DNA from: Calothrix sp. FI2-JRJ7
GTDB taxonomy: Bacteria; Cyanobacteriota; Cyanobacteriia; Cyanobacteriales; Nostocaceae
Length of the DNA: 64,000 bases
Direction: 5' to 3'
NCBI GenBank assembly: GCA_019359675.1
Contig: JAHHGX010000012.1
Location: 1-64,000 of the forward strand
The first letter of the stretch is position 1. Each line of letters starts with the position of its first letter. The translations under genes were made by a program, and so were the position numbers. Under the pieces are notes generated by a model. It saw only the letters and a list, made by a program, of their open reading frames with translations, searched no databases and was not told where the DNA came from. This document shows positions 30,589-38,939 of the stretch, piece after piece.

Positions 30589-31482
30589 ATGAATAAACCA
30601 AATAATTTGATACCAAAAAATATGTATTTAAAAGCTTTATTTAATCACAAAATTAAGAATATTTTATTATTAGCAAAACTACTTTCTTGTCTATTACTAT
30701 TTAATCTTGTTTTATTTCCTAGTGCTAGTAAAGCACAAATGAAAGTTTCGCCTACGATAATAGATGCAAAGGCTCAACGTGGACAAGCTCAATCTGTCAT
30801 ATCGATTACAAATGTAACTGACAAACCTTCTCGCGTCCGTCTATATGCTGAACCTTTTACTTACGACCGAGATAAAGGTTTCAAAACATTACCTGCTAAT
30901 AGTCCCAATAACTTAACTCCATTTCTACAATTCTCACCACGAGAATTGGTAATTCAACCGGGTCAAACTCGAAGGGTACGTATAACAACTCTTTTAGCGC
31001 CTAATTTACCAGAAGGTGAATACCGTGCAGTCGTTTTTAATGAAACTCTAACTGAGTCCAAAGATGCTAAAGGTAAAAATGTTAACCTTATTACCAGAGT
31101 TGGTGTACCTGTTTACATTGCCAAAGGGAAAGTAACTTCTAATTTAGCAGTAGATAGCGCCAGCTTTGATAGTAAAAAAAATCAGATTCAATTGCTAGTT
31201 CGCAATAACGGTAAAGCTTCAACACAAACAGAGGTAAAATGGACTCTACGCCGTCAAGGTAATGTTGTAAAAACAGGGAAAAAGGATTCGTCTGCTATAA
31301 TTGCACAATCTGACCGCAATATATCACTTAACTTTACTGACAAGAAAAATGAACCTGCACTTACTTCCGGCACCTATCAGTTAAGCGGCGAATTGATATG
31401 GGGTGAAAATAAGCAAAATAAGTTGCCTTTTAATCTAAATCTAACTATTCCTGCTTCATCTGCAACTTCACCAAAAAAATAA
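30589..31482 (+). CDS. PapD-like periplasmic pilus chaperone
   Basis: 297 residues. A long N-terminus with a hydrophobic signal (LLAKLLSCLLLFNLVLFP) ends around ASKAQ. The first Ig-like domain reads MKVSPTIIDAKAQRGQAQSV, then FLQFSPRELVIQPGQTRRVRI and EGEYRAVVFNE, which are the conserved strands of PapD-type chaperones. A second Ig-like domain runs to residue about 285. Chaperones of this type hold subunits by donor-strand complementation and hand them to the usher. It follows the third exported subunit and precedes the usher-like gene. Confidence 0.85.
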   Translation: MNKPNNLIPKNMYLKALFNHKIKNILLLAKLLSCLLLFNLVLFPSASKAQMKVSPTIIDAKAQRGQAQSVISITNVTDKPSRVRLYAEPFTYDRDKGFKTLPANSPNNLTPFLQFSPRELVIQPGQTRRVRITTLLAPNLPEGEYRAVVFNETLTESKDAKGKNVNLITRVGVPVYIAKGKVTSNLAVDSASFDSKKNQIQLLVRNNGKASTQTEVKWTLRRQGNVVKTGKKDSSAIIAQSDRNISLNFTDKKNEPALTSGTYQLSGELIWGENKQNKLPFNLNLTIPASSATSPKK

Positions 31483-31510
31483 AATAACATAGACCTAAAA
31501 AATATACGTA

Positions 31511-31540
31511 GGATAGGCTGGAAAGCCTGTCCTTATTTTT
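31511..31540 (+). terminator. Intrinsic terminator after the chaperone gene
   Basis: GGATAGGCT and AGCCTGTCC pair (one G-U) around GGAA and are followed by TTATTTTTT. It sits 28 bases after the chaperone stop, upstream of the usher-like gene, which may therefore have its own promoter or depend on read-through. Confidence 0.8.
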
Positions 31541-31670
31541 TGGTGTTAATTATTACTTTTACTTTGATAGTTTCCGCGCCCTTTTTGGGAAATATATTAG
31601 CAAGGCTGTATAAAGATTAATTATAGCGGCTGAAATACCTAAGAATATTTACTGAAAATATAAAGTCATC

Positions 31671-34634
31671 GTGATACATAAGTCTTATTTAAAAAAGAGT
31701 TTTTTAGTAGCTGTTATCGCATTTATTTATCAATTTTTGCCTAACGCTGCGAAAGCTGACACTCCTGGTTCTAATCTCAGGGAACTGCTTATGGGGAGTA
31801 AGGAGGAATTAGCATCAACGAAAAGTACAACAGAATCACAATTCCCTCCTCAACCTGTTGACTGGCGCCAGCGATTGAGCAAGAAAAGTATAATGACTTT
31901 GCAAGAACGTTTGCGTCAAGGTCGAACTTCTCTACAGGAGTTACAACCCGTTGAGTTGCAAAGCGTGAATAAAAACCGTGAGCAAATATCCCAAGCAGAA
32001 AATCGAAGTAATTCTTCTGTTAGTTGGATAGAACGGTTAACAAAGACTCCTTTCAGCACAAATCAAGTTAATACAGCAGTTGAAAGCCAGATTAATTTAC
32101 CCTCGCTAACTCCTAGCAGTTTAACAAATCCGGCATTAGCAACTTTAGCCAATCAAAGTGACTTCACTGTTTTTCCTGTTGGTGTAATGGTGGGTAAACG
32201 AAATGTTCTTCGTAGTGTTTTAATACGGGGAAAAGAAAACGGTTCGGAAGCAGTTAATTTTGAAGATTGGCTGGTTCCTTTCGATACAGTGATTGATGCT
32301 CTAAAGCTAGATGTGAAAAGTTTACCCGATGGTCAACTTGAAGCACGTTCACCTGGTCTGGTAACGCGGATTAATCCTAAAACGCTGCAAACAGATTCAG
32401 AGTTGGGGTTGGTTTTTTCAATTCGCGATATTCAAAGGTTGTTTGGTGTAACAGCAAAATTTGATATCGAAGAGTATGCTATTGCACTTGATTTACCTTG
32501 GTTAAACAGAGGTGGTAGCACTATTGGACAAAATGAAGCTCCGATTATTTTTGATGGTTTACCTCTTCTTAGACCTGGAAGTTTTAATATTGCTGCTGTT
32601 GAACAGAGGGTAAACGCTATTGGTGGAAGTCTAAATGAAACTAACTACCGAGGTGATTTGCAAGCGGTTGGTACAGCATTTGGTGGTTCGTGGTTTCTTC
32701 GTACTGACCAACCGACTTTAGGTGACAATCAAACTTGGAGAATATCAGAAGCGCAGTTTTTACGCCAAACGAATCAAAACGATTATTTCTTAGGTTCGCA
32801 TCCGACTTTTTGGCAAAGTCAAAATAGTGGTAATTTTTGGGGTTTTACATTAATTCAACGTCAAGGATTTGCACCTCCCCAACGCTTTAATGCAGGTTTT
32901 TCTGACCCGCGTCAGCGCTTACAGTCTGCTCAAATTGGACGGACGGTTACTGGTCGCGCGGAACCAGGTACTTTGGTGCGGTTAGTTGAAGGATTTGATG
33001 AACGGATTATTGGTGAGGTATTTGTTGACTCTTCTGGAACTTACCGCTTTGAAAATATCAAGAACCAAAATCAAAGCTTTGATAGTACTTATCGAGTCCT
33101 GCTTTACCCTGAAGGGCGCCTAACTGCACAACCAGAAATTCGTGAGGCAACATTTTCCACTGTCCCAGGACAAATACCAGCAGGCGCCTCAGCGTGGGTT
33201 GCTTCTGGTGGATGGCGCCGACGCTTCGACCAAAATCAAGGTTTATTTGGTAATTTCGATGATTTTGGTGGTGGTATTGCTGCACGCTTTGGTTTATCAG
33301 AAAGCATAACGCTTGGTTTTGGTGGAGTTTACGATGGTTCTTTACGTGGATTAACGGAATTATTCTACCGTCCCGAAAACTTTCCTCTTGAAGTGGCTGT
33401 TTCTGCCCTGACGGGAGAAAAATCAGATGTCATTGCTGATGTTCGCTTTGAACCATCTCGAACATTCACTGCAACATTTACTAGTGATTTTCTTTCTCGT
33501 CGTTTTAATCTTAATTGGAATTTATTCCGAGGTTTCAGTCTTTTTGGTACTGCTGACAGTCGTAACGCGACATCAGGAGGAATGCAGTTTAATTTTAGTG
33601 GCAGAGACTACTCAACTTTTGCGCGCGTTAGTTTAGATACAGAAAATCGCTTGCGTTGGAATTGGTTGCAAAGACTAGGAAAAATGGAACTCAACCAACG
33701 CGGTAACGAAATTGGTACTTTCTCGGAACTTACTTACAACTTCTCACGCAGCAGCATCACTGGACACGCACTACTCCTCAACTACGAAACCCGCAGCCAA
33801 AACCGTAATAACAACTTACTTACCCTTGGTTGGCGTTACCGTTCTGACCAACGAGCAAATGATGGAAACTACCAATGGGAAGCCCAATTAGGTTACGGTA
33901 TTGGGTCTCAAGGTAATGGTCTTGTCGCTTCGCTTGGAACTACAGTACTACCAGGAATTATGCTACGCGCGCGCTATCAAGGTATCTCACTAACATCCGA
34001 TGATGCTAGCTTTAGCGTAGATTTGGTATCAAGTTTGAATCTACAGCGAGGCATTACCCCTGGTGACAGACGTACCAACTACTTACGTACTCAAGGTGGA
34101 ATCATGATTCAGCCTTTTTACGATAGTAATAACAACGGTAAACGCGATGCAAACGAAAAATTTTATACTGAAAACTCAGAGACAATGCTCATCGTTAATA
34201 ACCGACCAGTCAAAGCACTAAGACCGGAAGCAGGAAACGACCGCATCAATATTCGTCTTAACCCTGGAACTTATCGTCTTGACCTTGACCCGGCTGGTTA
34301 TCCTCCCGACTGGCAAGCGTCAAATGATGCTTTTGCTGTTAATGTAGTGGCAGGAAGTTATACCCCAATTATGGTACCGCTCGTTCGCGCCTACAGTCGT
34401 ACCGGAGTACTTACCGACGCACAAGGAAATGCAATGGCAGGCGCCAGAGTTGAAGCAGTTGAACCAAAATCAGGCAAACGTCGCTTTTCAGTAACTAACA
34501 GCGCAGGTGTGTATTATCTAGAAGGGTTGCAACAAGGTGAATACGAATTGCAAATTAACGGTAAATCAGTTGGTGACTTGAAATTAGAAGGCGCCTCTGA
34601 AGCTTTTCAAGAGTTGAATTTGAAACAACCATAG
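31671..34634 (+). CDS. Usher-like outer-membrane protein
   Basis: 987 residues from a GTG start. A signal peptide (LVAVIAFIYQFLPNAAKA) is followed by about 150 low-complexity residues. The middle has usher-like features: an N-terminal periplasmic part, then TVTGRAEPGTLVRLVEG with FVDSSGTYRFENI, and a region of alternating strands (about 500-800) typical of a beta-barrel (WRRRFDQNQGLFGNFDDFGG onward). A FYDSNNNGKRDANEK calcium-type loop follows. The end is a carboxypeptidase-regulatory-like fold (GVLTDAQGNAMAGARVEAV). The position after a PapD-like chaperone supports an export pore role. It is diverged from classical ushers. Confidence 0.75.
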   Translation: MIHKSYLKKSFLVAVIAFIYQFLPNAAKADTPGSNLRELLMGSKEELASTKSTTESQFPPQPVDWRQRLSKKSIMTLQERLRQGRTSLQELQPVELQSVNKNREQISQAENRSNSSVSWIERLTKTPFSTNQVNTAVESQINLPSLTPSSLTNPALATLANQSDFTVFPVGVMVGKRNVLRSVLIRGKENGSEAVNFEDWLVPFDTVIDALKLDVKSLPDGQLEARSPGLVTRINPKTLQTDSELGLVFSIRDIQRLFGVTAKFDIEEYAIALDLPWLNRGGSTIGQNEAPIIFDGLPLLRPGSFNIAAVEQRVNAIGGSLNETNYRGDLQAVGTAFGGSWFLRTDQPTLGDNQTWRISEAQFLRQTNQNDYFLGSHPTFWQSQNSGNFWGFTLIQRQGFAPPQRFNAGFSDPRQRLQSAQIGRTVTGRAEPGTLVRLVEGFDERIIGEVFVDSSGTYRFENIKNQNQSFDSTYRVLLYPEGRLTAQPEIREATFSTVPGQIPAGASAWVASGGWRRRFDQNQGLFGNFDDFGGGIAARFGLSESITLGFGGVYDGSLRGLTELFYRPENFPLEVAVSALTGEKSDVIADVRFEPSRTFTATFTSDFLSRRFNLNWNLFRGFSLFGTADSRNATSGGMQFNFSGRDYSTFARVSLDTENRLRWNWLQRLGKMELNQRGNEIGTFSELTYNFSRSSITGHALLLNYETRSQNRNNNLLTLGWRYRSDQRANDGNYQWEAQLGYGIGSQGNGLVASLGTTVLPGIMLRARYQGISLTSDDASFSVDLVSSLNLQRGITPGDRRTNYLRTQGGIMIQPFYDSNNNGKRDANEKFYTENSETMLIVNNRPVKALRPEAGNDRINIRLNPGTYRLDLDPAGYPPDWQASNDAFAVNVVAGSYTPIMVPLVRAYSRTGVLTDAQGNAMAGARVEAVEPKSGKRRFSVTNSAGVYYLEGLQQGEYELQINGKSVGDLKLEGASEAFQELNLKQP

Positions 34635-35375: not shown

Positions 35376-36326
35376 ATGGAATCTACTGTGACTCAGTGGG
35401 AGAAACCGCGCGTAAATCCGGAGTTACTTAAGGATTTACACGTTACTGCTCATCATCAAAACTGGCGCCTTCTTACATTCATAGTTTTATATGTCACAAC
35501 TGCTTATAGTGCTTTTGCGGTAGCTCAAACAATTTTAAATCCTTGGGGATACTTGATTTGCTTGCCGTTTTATCTAGTTGCGGCAGCTTCACTACATGGA
35601 ATTAGTTTATTCACCCATGAGGGAGTGCATGGAATTCTTCATGGTAATTCAGTATGGAATCGTATACTAAGTATTATTTGTGCTTTACCTGTTGGACAAA
35701 ATTACTCAGCATATAAAGTCTTACATCTTAAACATCATAAACATTTGGGCTTAAAAGGCGACCCTGACCATTATAGTAATTACACGTCTTGGACTTGGTT
35801 ACAATTTTTGATGTACTGGGGGCGCCTAATTATTGGTTATCCAGTGTATTTAGTCGCAATTCCAGTTTTAGGGTTTCGTCAAGGTGATATTCAAGATAAG
35901 GTTTGGATTGTTATTGAAGTTGCTTTATTAGGAATCATTACTACAGCATTAATTATGGCGCCAATCAACACCAACTTGATAATACATAGTTGGTTGATAC
36001 CAATGGTGTTTATTAATACGATGGTGAATATTCGCGGAATGAGTCAGCACACGCTATTAGAGCATGAGTTTGATACGATTCACGGTACACGGACTATTCT
36101 TACAAACAGAGTCACACGCTTCTTCATGTGTAACGAAAATTACCATCTCGAACACCATTTGTATCCTGGTGTGCCTTGGTACAATTTACCACGTTTACAT
36201 CATGAACTCAAAGATGAACTAATATCCAAAGGCGCCCCGTTTATTCCTTCGTATTTTGCATTTGTACGTGATTTTGCTGTTGCTAGCTTAGAAAAATCAC
36301 CTGCTGGTACCGTTGCTATTAAATAA
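35376..36326 (+). CDS. Membrane fatty-acid desaturase / hydroxylase family protein
   Basis: 316 residues with four or more membrane helices. The three histidine boxes that bind the diiron centre are present: HEGVHG (near 80-85), HLKHHKH (near 117-123) and NYHLEHHLYP (near 256-265), plus a further SQHTLLEHEF. The form is that of the DesA/CrtR superfamily and could act on an acyl chain or on another hydrophobic substrate. It is the first gene of a tight operon. The next gene begins 15 bp after its stop. Substrate unknown. Confidence 0.85.
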   Translation: MESTVTQWEKPRVNPELLKDLHVTAHHQNWRLLTFIVLYVTTAYSAFAVAQTILNPWGYLICLPFYLVAAASLHGISLFTHEGVHGILHGNSVWNRILSIICALPVGQNYSAYKVLHLKHHKHLGLKGDPDHYSNYTSWTWLQFLMYWGRLIIGYPVYLVAIPVLGFRQGDIQDKVWIVIEVALLGIITTALIMAPINTNLIIHSWLIPMVFINTMVNIRGMSQHTLLEHEFDTIHGTRTILTNRVTRFFMCNENYHLEHHLYPGVPWYNLPRLHHELKDELISKGAPFIPSYFAFVRDFAVASLEKSPAGTVAIK

Positions 36327-36341
36327 TTATTATCTAAATAT

Positions 36342-37082
36342 ATGCAGGCATTTATATCAAAGCCAGTATTTGCAATTACCAAAACACCAGAATTATCCTG
36401 GGAAGAGCTAATTGAATTACCAACATTAGAAGCTGCCATAACGCAAGTTGCTTTCGTATACGATTTTAGTAAGCATCCTTACTTTATTTGGATGAATGAG
36501 GAAGCTACAACACGCGATACTTTTCTTGAGAGTCAACTACCTTTTCGTTTTGCAGTTGAGTCATTTTCCCAAGCATTAGCAGCAGTTCTTGCACGTGTAC
36601 AGTTTCTGGAAGCGCGACTGCCTCTTTTCGCAAATATTGCTGAGGAACATGGTTATGGCAATCTTTTACGTTCCCATAAATTTACTTTTCGTGAATATTT
36701 ACAAGCTTTGGGAGCTTCTGAAGTTGAATTAAATACACCTTGCACTACTCCTGTATTAGCTTTTAATCAATCGATTTTAACTTATTGCCTGACTCAAAGT
36801 CCTGAAGCAGGCGCCGCGATGCTGTGTATAATCGAATATTTATATGTAGGTATTAGCACTTCGATTGCTAGTACTCTACAACAACGGCTCTGGACAATCC
36901 CTGGTAGTCAGTCGCATTACACTACTCACGAAAAACTTGATACCGAACACGCTAGAGATTTAATGAATATGGCAACCCCAGCTTGGAACACAATGGTATC
37001 GCGTTCTCAAGTTGCCCAAGCCCTTGTCCTCGGCGCCTACTATTTTTGGAGTTTGTATAATGATTTGCGCCCCACCCTCTGA
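36342..37082 (+). CDS. Heme-oxygenase-like diiron oxidase (HDO) / iron-containing redox enzyme
   Basis: 246 residues, all-alpha TenA/PqqC-like fold. Metal-ligand motifs are visible: EEHGYGNLLRSH, a mid-protein CIIEYLYVG giving the bridging Glu, and HEKLDTEH, which matches the H-x3-D-x2-H ligand spacing of HDO enzymes. HDO enzymes include UndA (alkene formation), CADD and BesC, which cleave or oxidise amino or fatty acids. Fifteen bp follow the desaturase gene, and the next gene overlaps its end by 23 bp. The reaction cannot be named from sequence. It is probably the key oxidative step of this operon. Confidence 0.82.
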   Translation: MQAFISKPVFAITKTPELSWEELIELPTLEAAITQVAFVYDFSKHPYFIWMNEEATTRDTFLESQLPFRFAVESFSQALAAVLARVQFLEARLPLFANIAEEHGYGNLLRSHKFTFREYLQALGASEVELNTPCTTPVLAFNQSILTYCLTQSPEAGAAMLCIIEYLYVGISTSIASTLQQRLWTIPGSQSHYTTHEKLDTEHARDLMNMATPAWNTMVSRSQVAQALVLGAYYFWSLYNDLRPTL

Positions 37083-38139
37083 TATTTCATTTTCCCAAGT
37101 TCGTGAAGACCTTACAATTGAACTACAGGTTATCAACCAATTAACCCAAACGCAAAATCATCCATTGCGAGTACTAATAATTGCGTCAGGAGGATGTACA
37201 GTACTAAGTTTATTGTCATGTCCAGATGTAGAACATATTGATGCCGTTGATTTAAATCCTGCACAGCTTCATTTAGTTGAATTACGACGACAAGCATTAT
37301 TACATTTACAACTCGAAGAACAACTAGATTTAATCGGCGCCACTAAAATAACTCAAGCCGAACGAGTTAATCTGTATTATCAAATCGCATCTCAACTGCC
37401 AATCTCAACTCGAAATCACTGGGATGCACGAATTGAACAAATTGCTTTTGGTGTAAACCAAGTGGGCAAATTCGAGCAACTGTTTCGCGAATTATCTGCG
37501 AGCTTTACTGCATCAGGTCTTAACCCATTACGCAATCCAGATACCGTAACTTCTCATCCACTATGGCAGCAAATTTTTGAAACTGTCTTTGAACGTAATA
37601 AGCTAGCGCGCATTTTTGGTGATGCTGCCGTTAATTACTCTATGGATAGAAGTTTTGGCACACATTTTGCCGATGTTTTTGCCAAAGCTTTACATAAATA
37701 CACAATGGCAAATTACTTTCTAACTCAAGTTTGGAGTGGTTCTTATTCCTATGGAGTTAATGGTGTACCACTTTACTTGCAACCAGATACCCAAATTTCA
37801 ATTCGAGAACTTGGAACCTCAAGATTACACCTACATCAAGGCGCCTTTGCTGAAAAAATGCTCGAACTAGTAACAAGCCAACCTTACGATTTGATTCAAT
37901 TTTCTAATATTTCTGACTGGATGCCCCCTAATGATTTAGATGAAATGCTTCAAAATGCCGTACATTGCTTAAAACCTGGTGGTGCATTAATTGGACGGCG
38001 CCTTAATGGCGACCATCATCTTGCTTCAGTCATGGCTAAACATATTTATATAGATAAACAACTTAATCACAAACTTTTAGAGTCTGACCGTTCGTTCTTC
38101 TATCGTGAAGTAGTTGTAGGGTGGGTACAAAAAATATGA
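37060..38139 (+). CDS. DUF3419/BtaA-like S-adenosylmethionine 3-amino-3-carboxypropyltransferase
   Basis: 359 residues from ATG 37060, overlapping the HDO gene by 23 bp; an upstream start at 37012 would overlap more. The SAM-binding part reads VLIIASGGCTVLSLLSC, then IDAVDLNPAQLHLVELRRQAL, matching the DUF3419 signature of BtaA, which moves the aminocarboxypropyl group from SAM to diacylglycerol in betaine-lipid synthesis. The C-terminal QFSNISDWMPPNDL and LKPGGALIGRRLN are also typical. No BtaB-like methyltransferase is nearby, so DGTS itself is not the obvious product. Its stop overlaps the next start (ATGA). Confidence 0.8.
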   Translation: MICAPPSDISFSQVREDLTIELQVINQLTQTQNHPLRVLIIASGGCTVLSLLSCPDVEHIDAVDLNPAQLHLVELRRQALLHLQLEEQLDLIGATKITQAERVNLYYQIASQLPISTRNHWDARIEQIAFGVNQVGKFEQLFRELSASFTASGLNPLRNPDTVTSHPLWQQIFETVFERNKLARIFGDAAVNYSMDRSFGTHFADVFAKALHKYTMANYFLTQVWSGSYSYGVNGVPLYLQPDTQISIRELGTSRLHLHQGAFAEKMLELVTSQPYDLIQFSNISDWMPPNDLDEMLQNAVHCLKPGGALIGRRLNGDHHLASVMAKHIYIDKQLNHKLLESDRSFFYREVVVGWVQKI

Positions 38140-38939
38140 AATTCCACCGTATTGCTACCGCAGAGCGCGAGATGTTTCAAGAAGGAATTGTTAGCATTGA
38201 AACAATTGCCAAATATCCTCTAGGAAAAGATTTCTTTCAAATAGACCACGGTCTAGATTACTTTGCTTTTTTTGACCGTCTTGGCAAAGTTAATTACTAC
38301 GTAATGCACGAGGATAATATAGTTGGGGCTGTTGGTGCTGGTATACTACGTAAAATTCCATACCAGCAAGGAGAGGCGCCGATGAGTGCATGGTACCTTT
38401 GTGATTTAAAAGTTCACCCTAATTACCAGCGTCGTAATTTATCTTTACGAATTCTAAGTCATGCCGTAGTTGATGGGATTCGTGAATGCAGCTGTGGTTA
38501 TGCGATTTCAATGAATCCTGGAGATGGTAGTCCTAACCGTTGGGTAAAAGTTATTGAAAAATACTCCAGAATTAAATTTACCACATCTACCCAATTAGGT
38601 ATTTATAGTTTGGATGCAGCAACAATGAGTTATATTGCTCCATTGATTATCAAACACAGGGGCGATATTTCTTATATGAGTCTAAAAGGCATTAAAGACT
38701 TACGTTTGCAAAGCACAGGAAATATTTTGCCACTCGTTCACGTCCAGTGGGGAGCAAATGTTGAGAAAGGCACAGCAGAAGTTATACCAGGGTATACTCA
38801 TATGTTTTGTGTACCTAGTGATGATGAACTTGCACAGGCATTAGGATGTTTTGATATATATCCAGGCGCCAGTGCAAGTGTTGTGAGTCATGGAATGAAT
38901 AATAGTGATTGGCGTTTTATTGTAACTAGTGACATATAG
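38136..38939 (+). CDS. GNAT family N-acyltransferase
   Basis: 267 residues from ATG 38136, overlapping the BtaA-like gene by four bases (ATGA), so translation is coupled. The acetyl-CoA site is in YLCDLKVHPNYQRRNLSLRI (about 90-110), a GNAT motif A with QRRNLS in place of the common QxxGxG/A. The N-terminus carries GQ-like HRIATAEREMF. A long C-terminal half (about 150-267) is unusual and may bind a second substrate. Last gene of the operon. It probably acylates the amine made by the upstream enzymes, by inference. Confidence 0.78.
   Translation: MKFHRIATAEREMFQEGIVSIETIAKYPLGKDFFQIDHGLDYFAFFDRLGKVNYYVMHEDNIVGAVGAGILRKIPYQQGEAPMSAWYLCDLKVHPNYQRRNLSLRILSHAVVDGIRECSCGYAISMNPGDGSPNRWVKVIEKYSRIKFTTSTQLGIYSLDAATMSYIAPLIIKHRGDISYMSLKGIKDLRLQSTGNILPLVHVQWGANVEKGTAEVIPGYTHMFCVPSDDELAQALGCFDIYPGASASVVSHGMNNSDWRFIVTSDI

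Follow-up and report, generated by a model that had tools for sequence, protein, structure and literature searches.

A conserved gene cassette of two diiron oxidases, a DUF3419 protein and a GNAT-like protein in Calothrix sp. FI2-JRJ7

Four enzyme genes at positions 35376-38939 of the analysed window (the whole stretch of 64,000 nt, i.e., positions 1-64,000 of contig JAHHGX010000012.1 of the filamentous cyanobacterium Calothrix sp. FI2-JRJ7, assembly GCA_019359675.1) form one functional unit. Arranged in the order DES-HDO-DUF3419-GNAT-like, the genes are intact, stand under purifying selection and co-occur across genomes, with HDO-DUF3419-GNAT as the core and DES as an accessory. They might well, at a chance just short of even, make up a biosynthetic cassette that is self-contained and yields a SAM-derived small molecule not yet described.

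Gene arrangement and linkage

The block comprises the following features:

DES, 35376..36326, + strand: 316 aa; membrane diiron oxidase/hydroxylase of the FA_desaturase superfamily with three His boxes (PF00487, 148.4 bits, cut-off 29.7)
HDO, 36342..37082, + strand: 246 aa; heme-oxygenase-like diiron oxidase (Haem_oxygenas_2, PF14518, 59.5 bits, cut-off 28.9)
HDO/DUF3419 overlap, 37060..37082, + strand: 23 bp; gene pair contiguous in relatives
DUF3419, 37060..38139, + strand: 359 aa, start codon ATG 37060; SAM-binding transferase of the BtaA superfamily, probable 3-amino-3-carboxypropyl transferase (PF11899, 126.5 bits, cut-off 28.2)
DUF3419/GNAT start/stop overlap, 38136..38139, + strand: ATGA
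GNAT-like, 38136..38939, + strand: 267 aa, start codon ATG 38136; probable N-acyltransferase (Acetyltransf_1, 19.2 bits, below the cut-off of 20.7)

The first-pass annotation had joined these genes on account of their spacing, and the open reading frames bear this out, with a gap of 15 bp between DES and HDO followed by the 23-bp and the ATGA overlaps. Translational coupling via the longer overlap is probable. The DES-HDO gap is looser in L005, L007 and L090 (about 180-205 bp), and more than 100 bp lie between DUF3419 and GNAT in L011 and L099. A scan for promoters and terminators returned 8 promoter-like sites (14.8 expected) and 4 terminator-like sites (3.2 expected).

The search took in plasmid records and genomes of the window's phylum, along with a single pattern scan of genome contigs. 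Five loci (L006, L007, L008, L009, and L010) are apparently the same records as the genomes G429, G529, G500, G570, and G454, and each was counted once. The gene order was found in 18 loci, the window included, and relatives sharing it show about 55-76% protein identity. As this order is kept in relatives and dN/dS values of 0.10-0.31 were obtained across the four genes in comparison with three close relatives, the block is more than a product of chance. On genome contigs, all 11 loci with a close HDO feature the same order, one of them (L009) ending before GNAT. DUF3419 adjoins HDO in 16 of the 18 genomes with an HDO at at least 41% identity. Among 388 genomes, GNAT was present in 17, and all but one of these (16) also encode an HDO at this level (Fisher p 2.8e-25); the remaining GNAT-bearing genome, G552, carries a decayed operon. 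Likewise, GNAT lies beside DUF3419 in 16 of the 17 GNAT-bearing genomes, with the pieces on different contigs in G580. For the four proteins, pairwise distances are correlated, with Pearson coefficients of 0.93-0.97 and Spearman coefficients of 0.61-0.81, values in which shared ancestry is left in. The earlier view of a single unit is thus upheld by the 18 loci and the joint occurrence of GNAT and HDO. Scattered and unlinked homologues, which the annotation had named as the outcome that would speak against it, were looked for, and linkage is strong across genomes. In a neighbour tally over 14 loci, the four cassette families are the only ones to exceed 4 loci. The possibility that four unrelated genes became chance neighbours in one lineage is practically nil and was rejected, being refuted by this tally, by linkage across genera and by the co-occurrence of GNAT with HDO.

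Partial versions of the cassette delimit its core. One cyanobacterium (G506) features HDO-DUF3419-GNAT without DES, and a plasmid of Mycobacterium riyadhense carries a homologous DUF3419-HDO-GNAT core followed by an MMPL-family transporter, so that the core spans an actinobacterial representative besides the cyanobacteria. A plasmid of Deefgea piscis encodes a weakly FeeM-like protein, HDO, DUF3419, and SpeD. HDO also occurs alone, outside the cassette: G062, G489, and G563 (56%, 41%, and 32% identical, the genome of G563 being 78% complete) contain it without DUF3419 or GNAT, and six records of Streptomyces plasmids carry a solo HDO. In the two of these with annotation that were examined, an EF-hand gene adjoins and no DUF3419 is listed. 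G044 encodes a DUF3419 protein of 38% identity, with no HDO match on its 7-kb contig; this runs counter to the cassette reading, as do the solo HDOs and the missing DES of G506.

The two diiron oxidases and the GNAT-like protein

The Pfam score of HDO places it in the HDO superfamily. The metal-binding residues of CADD, which we take as the basis for the ligand assignment, correspond in the alignment to E102, H112, E165, H196, D200, and H203, all six of which are kept. Conservation extends over the HEKLDTEH motif and the remaining ligands of HDO, and the DUF3419 SAM motifs and the three His boxes of DES, which the first-pass annotation had described as intact, are confirmed. The nearest solved relatives are CADD and other p-aminobenzoate synthases, matched in the PDB at E 6e-11, which share the fold family and the six ligands with HDO. 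However, the sacrificial Tyr27 and the amine-donor Lys152 of CADD (PMC11965152) are replaced by F48 (F/L/I/M across the aligned rows) and I175, and p-aminobenzoate synthesis by HDO was rejected for want of both residues. One place from the Tyr27 equivalent, Y47 is invariant in the aligned rows. The score for TIGR04305 amounts to 23.2 of 200 bits. Some HDOs form azetidines (PMC13185094).

DES belongs to the FA_desaturase superfamily, and its His boxes HEGVH, HLKHHKH, and HLEHH are conserved, with invariant histidines in 8 aligned rows. Three such boxes are also a feature of the GntB-, CrtR-, and MocD-type oxidases, its nearest curated matches, whereas DES stays far under every equivalog cut-off (GntB 66/380, CrtR 50.7/475, CrtW 34.6/350, and DesA 14.5/500 bits). 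A 20-row tree built without acyl-lipid desaturases groups DES with one relative, which comes from G062 and adjoins a GH3-family gene there. The best matches are hydroxylase and ketolase models, below cut-off, and DesA is the sole desaturase model matched. Of the earlier label "desaturase", the domain and the three His boxes therefore stand, but its lipid sense is doubtful. A profile search of the PDB with DES gave no convincing relative.

The GNAT assignment is the least certain of the four labels, because its CoA-binding motif is degenerate. The M. riyadhense homologue reaches 21.5 bits and lies above the Acetyltransf_1 cut-off, which the window protein misses. A profile HMM of the operon proteins matched the M. 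riyadhense homologue at 46 bits; with the GNAT-like sequence alone as query, the plasmids gave no match, not even M. riyadhense. The structure model is poor (pLDDT 46), the profile search of the PDB with GNAT revealed no convincing relative, and profile comparison showed no similarity to the GNAT-like gene of other DUF3419 clusters.

The DUF3419 protein and the betaine-lipid question

To our knowledge, BtaA acting on diacylglycerol is the sole characterised function of the DUF3419 family. The SAM-binding start ASGG ... DLN, which we take to be the SAM site of this family, is intact in the cassette protein. In the tree, a split at 100/99 separates the DUF3419 proteins of the operon, L043, and M. 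riyadhense from the other rows. The next row outside is a single one from Sinorhizobium (87/84, branch 2.2), read as BtaA because of its size and the methyltransferase-like ORF after it. The structure model (pLDDT 59) yielded no Foldseek match reaching E 0.001; the best had E 0.0047, and the matches were mostly methyltransferase folds with low TM. The profile search of the PDB with DUF3419 gave no convincing relative.

Compared with BtaA and BtaB of DGTS synthesis, the cassette shares the DUF3419 domain and, presumably, SAM as the aminocarboxypropyl donor (BtaA being the betaine-lipid ACP transferase, PMC10491745), but it features two additional diiron oxidases, an N-acyltransferase-like gene instead of a BtaB-like partner, and its own DUF3419 clade together with M. 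riyadhense. The absence of BtaB, claimed by the first-pass annotation, agrees with the genome search: with one S. meliloti BtaB sequence as query, no orthologue was evident and no methyltransferase lies beside DUF3419 in the operon. The 14 matches, none beyond residues 22-189 of 235 and the best with 43% over 33-160 (50 bits), are partial and are regarded as generic methyltransferases, although a more distant BtaB may be encoded. A complete DGTS pathway was accordingly rejected, and ordinary betaine-lipid synthesis appears unlikely from sequence, given the lack of an outstanding BtaB-like partner and the distance of DES from lipid-desaturase models, but the cassette DUF3419 may still be kin to BtaA.

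A new membrane aminolipid is a somewhat unlikely alternative, in which DUF3419 would make diacylglyceryl-homoserine like BtaA, GNAT would N-acylate it, and DES and HDO would modify the chains or the head group. The known function of the family, the position of the Sinorhizobium row, the transporter after the M. riyadhense core, and the membrane enzyme family of DES are in line with it, whereas the partial BtaB matches, the scores of DES and the lack of a clear Pho-box-like repeat in 15 upstream regions argue against it. With the Pho-box consensus as the yardstick, L057 was the one region that just 5 of 100 shuffles equalled, and Pho-box control was rejected.

Distinctly unlikely is the reading of DUF3419 as a SAM cyclase (forming azetidine-2-carboxylate, homoserine lactone or similar) or as an ordinary methyltransferase, with HDO and GNAT acting on the small product. 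Methyltransferase-fold SAM cyclases do exist (PMC10491745), the azetidine-forming HDOs would fit, and DUF3419 shows weak Methyltransf_12/25 matches below cut-off; nevertheless, no known cyclase was recognisably similar in searches of Pfam, NCBIfam, and the PDB. Microcin C MccD/MccE offers a further comparison: SAM or decarboxylated SAM serves there for alkyl transfer, and the cassette is likewise presumed to be a non-methyl, small-metabolite pathway, to which the Deefgea piscis version adds a SpeD gene. However, peptide or nucleotide genes are absent from the cassette, and a review (PMC10491745) sees no apparent homology between BtaA and MccD. Two further readings were rejected: carriage of this DUF3419 by viruses, where 26 pattern matches contained no relative, and anti-phage defence, with one weak PADLOC match (mad2, 16.5 bits on DUF3419 residues 248-310).

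Proposed pathway and implications

For the cassette as a source of an undescribed SAM-derived small molecule, the following steps can be suggested. DUF3419 would probably move the 3-amino-3-carboxypropyl group from SAM onto a nucleophile. HDO could possibly act first and oxidise a common metabolite to the acceptor, an order proposed because HDO is found alone in genomes while GNAT keeps to DUF3419; this argument is undone if the solo HDOs have a different substrate, which may be the case. GNAT might perhaps acylate the new alpha-amine, in place of the BtaB methylation in betaine lipids, and DES might perhaps come last by hydroxylating or desaturating the product. The product may be amphiphilic, as the MMPL-family transporter adjoins the actinobacterial version; the aminolipid, alkene or modified amino acid suggested by the first-pass annotation would be candidates. 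Against this scheme stand the diacylglycerol function of BtaA and the place of the Sinorhizobium row next to the operon group, the sub-threshold GNAT match with its degenerate motif and fruitless plasmid search, the poor structure models, and the lack of profile similarity to the GNAT-like gene of other DUF3419 clusters.

The substrate of the rhizobitoxine desaturase is a homoserine ether. In that pathway, the desaturase (RtxC) is described as catalysing the final reaction, by which an amino acid becomes an enol ether (PMC6304460); the likeness of DES to RtxC is by analogy only, drawn from pathway descriptions. An improbable but more specific proposal is that the cassette leads to oxidised aminocarboxypropyl amino acids of a new class, for which HDO would make an N-O nucleophile from an amine, DUF3419 would alkylate it with the C4 unit of SAM to a homoserine ether, DES would generate an oxyvinylglycine-like or hydroxylated form, and GNAT would mask the amine.

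The first-pass annotation did not know this combination, and the literature searched likewise describes no such four-gene cassette. The consulted parts of PMC13108848 contain no DUF3419, BtaA or "cyanobacter-", and the clusters presented in PMC13185094 and PMC13061610 differ from the present one. The DUF3419 family thus gains a context outside betaine lipids, tied to HDO, a member of a superfamily whose O2 chemistry is unusual. Moreover, the whole pathway is reduced to four co-expressible genes. Step order and chemistry are open to direct tests, from which a new HDO reaction or SAM-alkylation product would be likely to emerge. If the more specific proposal were true, it would represent a ribosome- and NRPS-free four-enzyme pathway to an antimetabolite or signal, with a core common to cyanobacteria and actinobacteria.

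A conserved four-gene unit in cyanobacteria

The ORF calls matched the four open reading frames that the first-pass annotation had described at 35376-38939:

from 35376, + strand: DES, FA_desaturase-superfamily membrane diiron oxidase, 316 aa, first of four
second of four, + strand: HDO, heme-oxygenase-like diiron oxidase, 246 aa
ATG at 37060, + strand: DUF3419, BtaA-superfamily SAM-binding protein, 359 aa
ATG at 38136, block ending at 38939, + strand: GNAT-like, probable N-acyltransferase, 267 aa

The successive spacings between these window ORFs are +15, -23 and -4 bp, and Pfam supports the DES, HDO and DUF3419 labels strongly and the GNAT label weakly. Upstream of the operon (30589-34634), two proteins look by eye like a chaperone-usher pair: one of 297 aa has a Big_14 match below the cut-off, and the other, of 987 aa, has a carboxypeptidase-regulatory-like domain. 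Besides, GGCGCC occurs 117 times in the window (1-64000) against 5.3 expected (maximum in 100 shuffles, 11) and seems to stand in as a highly iterated palindrome, the usual cyanobacterial palindrome HIP1, GCGATCGC, being found 0 times against 0.3 expected.

A pattern scan with one genome per species matched 35 stretches, 11 of which encode an HDO relative. DES, HDO and DUF3419 occur in identical order in all 11 of these loci and GNAT is also present in 10, the remaining locus (L009) stopping inside DUF3419. In a neighbour comparison of these 11 loci together with those of genomes G091, G193 and G008, DES, HDO, DUF3419 and GNAT were the only families found in more than four of the 14 loci. Within the 388-genome set of the class, 61 genomes gave any HDO match and 18 a match of at least 41% identity, with DUF3419 adjoining HDO in 16 of the latter. 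Where the contigs of these 16 genomes extend far enough, DES adjoins in 14 of 15 (G506 being without DES) and GNAT in 14 of 14; in G628 the contig begins just before HDO, a different contig carrying a DES fragment of 63% identity at its end. GNAT itself was found in 17 of the 388 genomes, 16 of them belonging to the 18 with HDO of at least 41% identity (Fisher p 2.8e-25). In the seventeenth, G552, the operon is decaying: GNAT and the later part of DUF3419 are kept, whereas DES, HDO and the beginning of DUF3419 are gone. With each record counted once and the window included, three loci are cut by contig ends (L009, G580 and G628), one holds only the HDO-DUF3419-GNAT core (G506), and the four genes are in place in 18; five of the 11 pattern-scan loci appear to duplicate members of the 388-genome set. 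The check for co-occurrence suggested in the first-pass annotation thus found the four families linked, and they are a real, conserved unit.

The dN/dS ratios of the four genes are 0.10-0.31 (window versus its close relatives L002, L003 and L004). Moreover, pairwise protein distances correlate among the four families (18 rows; Pearson 0.93-0.97, Spearman 0.61-0.81, shared ancestry uncorrected). In the Dulcicalothrix operon (L004, 7043-10595), dS to the window is higher for DES (0.49) and HDO (0.39) than for DUF3419 (0.13) and GNAT (0.17), which makes a recombination point inside that operon possible.

Identity of the enzymes

In a profile search, the closest solved relatives of HDO were p-aminobenzoate synthases, with which its six metal ligands align. 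For one of these, CADD, the available part of PMC11965152 names the sacrificial residues Tyr27 and Lys152. The operon HDO has the metal ligands in common with CADD but no matching residues at these two positions, its invariant Tyr lying one place away from that of Tyr27. As the ligands align and Tyr27 and Lys152 do not, the site is predicted to be built for O2 activation and not for the p-aminobenzoate synthase reaction. Chemistries of HDOs listed in the available part of PMC13185094 are O-atom transfer, methine excision, desaturation, C-C scission and nitrile or azetidine formation, with MboA as an alkyne-forming HDO.

DES retains its three His boxes and scores far under the cut-off of every curated equivalog matched. 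In a 20-row tree without a canonical acyl-lipid desaturase, it pairs with a 40% identical relative from G062 (86/88) and stands apart from CrtR, CrtW and MocD-type oxidases. This relative (in L144, 2297-7735) adjoins a GH3-family gene and, by eye, two GNAT-like proteins, neither of which matched a Pfam family at E 0.01.

DUF3419 scores far above its Pfam family cut-off. In a tree of 32 rows, a branch (95/97) separates the 10 operon rows from the others, and these 10 group with the rows of Mycobacterium riyadhense and locus L043 (100/99). Next outside this group, on a long branch (87/84; midpoint root, join possibly false), stands a Sinorhizobium protein that is probably BtaA, to judge by its length and by a methyltransferase-like ORF that follows its gene. 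On this tree, the operon DUF3419 may or may not be kin to BtaA. In betaine lipids, the alpha-amine brought in by BtaA is methylated by BtaB, whereas in the operon an acyltransferase-like protein occupies the place of BtaB. A search of the window's genome with S. meliloti BtaB gave 14 matches, all partial and methyltransferase-type, and therefore ordinary DGTS synthesis is unlikely. Small-molecule aminocarboxypropyl transferases are named in a review (PMC10491745), the available part of which describes none together with an HDO.

A second DUF3419 ORF of the window's genome (contig C64; L054, 5897-6295) is truncated at 133 aa and belongs by eye to the other cyanobacterial clade. In another context, that of Roseinatronobacter (L118, 523-8507), DUF3419 follows UbiA-family and PEP/pyruvate-binding (PPDK_N) genes and precedes genes for an unnamed protein and a weakly GNAT-like protein and an AMP-binding gene, a setting that L052, L053 and L059 of Cyanobacteriota resemble by eye. 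The neighbours of DUF3419 on a Rhizobium plasmid (L119, 1-6155) are KAS III and CoF synthetase genes, and in G328 (L058, 1528-7318) it lies near a Rieske oxygenase gene and, by eye, acyl-AMP ligase-like and dehydrogenase-like genes.

Relatives outside cyanobacteria

In a plasmid search, HDO (31% identity) and DUF3419 (26%) matched one M. riyadhense plasmid with the gene order DUF3419-HDO-GNAT-RND transporter, the transporter being of the MMPL family. A single-sequence GNAT search of plasmids gave no match, but against the operon GNAT model the homologue from M. riyadhense scores 46 bits. DES was not seen in the 16.7-kb stretch. On a Deefgea piscis plasmid, HDO is flanked by DUF3419 and a protein with weak similarity to FeeM (17.4 bits, below the cut-off), the cluster (L117, 7598-12118) continuing after DUF3419 with SpeD, monooxygenase and serine hydrolase genes. 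Since this HDO lies outside the operon subfamily (no match to the operon HDO model), an acyltransferase, an HDO and a DUF3419 protein have perhaps come together repeatedly. The SpeD gene next to DUF3419 may point to the use of decarboxylated SAM in this cluster. On two Streptomyces plasmids (L014, 7232-8618; L164, 5292-6690), an HDO relative lies downstream of an EF-hand protein gene, and the annotation lists no DUF3419 nearby.

Proposed order of steps and novelty

HDO occurs without DUF3419 and GNAT in G062, G489 and G563, GNAT adjoins DUF3419 in 16 of 17 GNAT genomes (the pieces in G580 being on separate contigs), and DES is absent from both the M. riyadhense version and G506. On account of these solo HDOs, the neighbourhood of GNAT and DUF3419 and the two cases without DES, HDO would act first, followed by DUF3419 and then GNAT, with DES acting last. 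The weakest links of this proposal are the substrate assumed to be common with the solo HDOs and the GNAT assignment, given its score below the cut-off, degenerate CoA motif and structure model pLDDT of 46.

The first-pass annotation had not known this combination of four families, and likewise no such cassette was described among the matches listed in a literature search of titles and abstracts, outside which most subscription journals lay. The pathway is apparently undescribed and joins known kinds of enzymes in a new combination.
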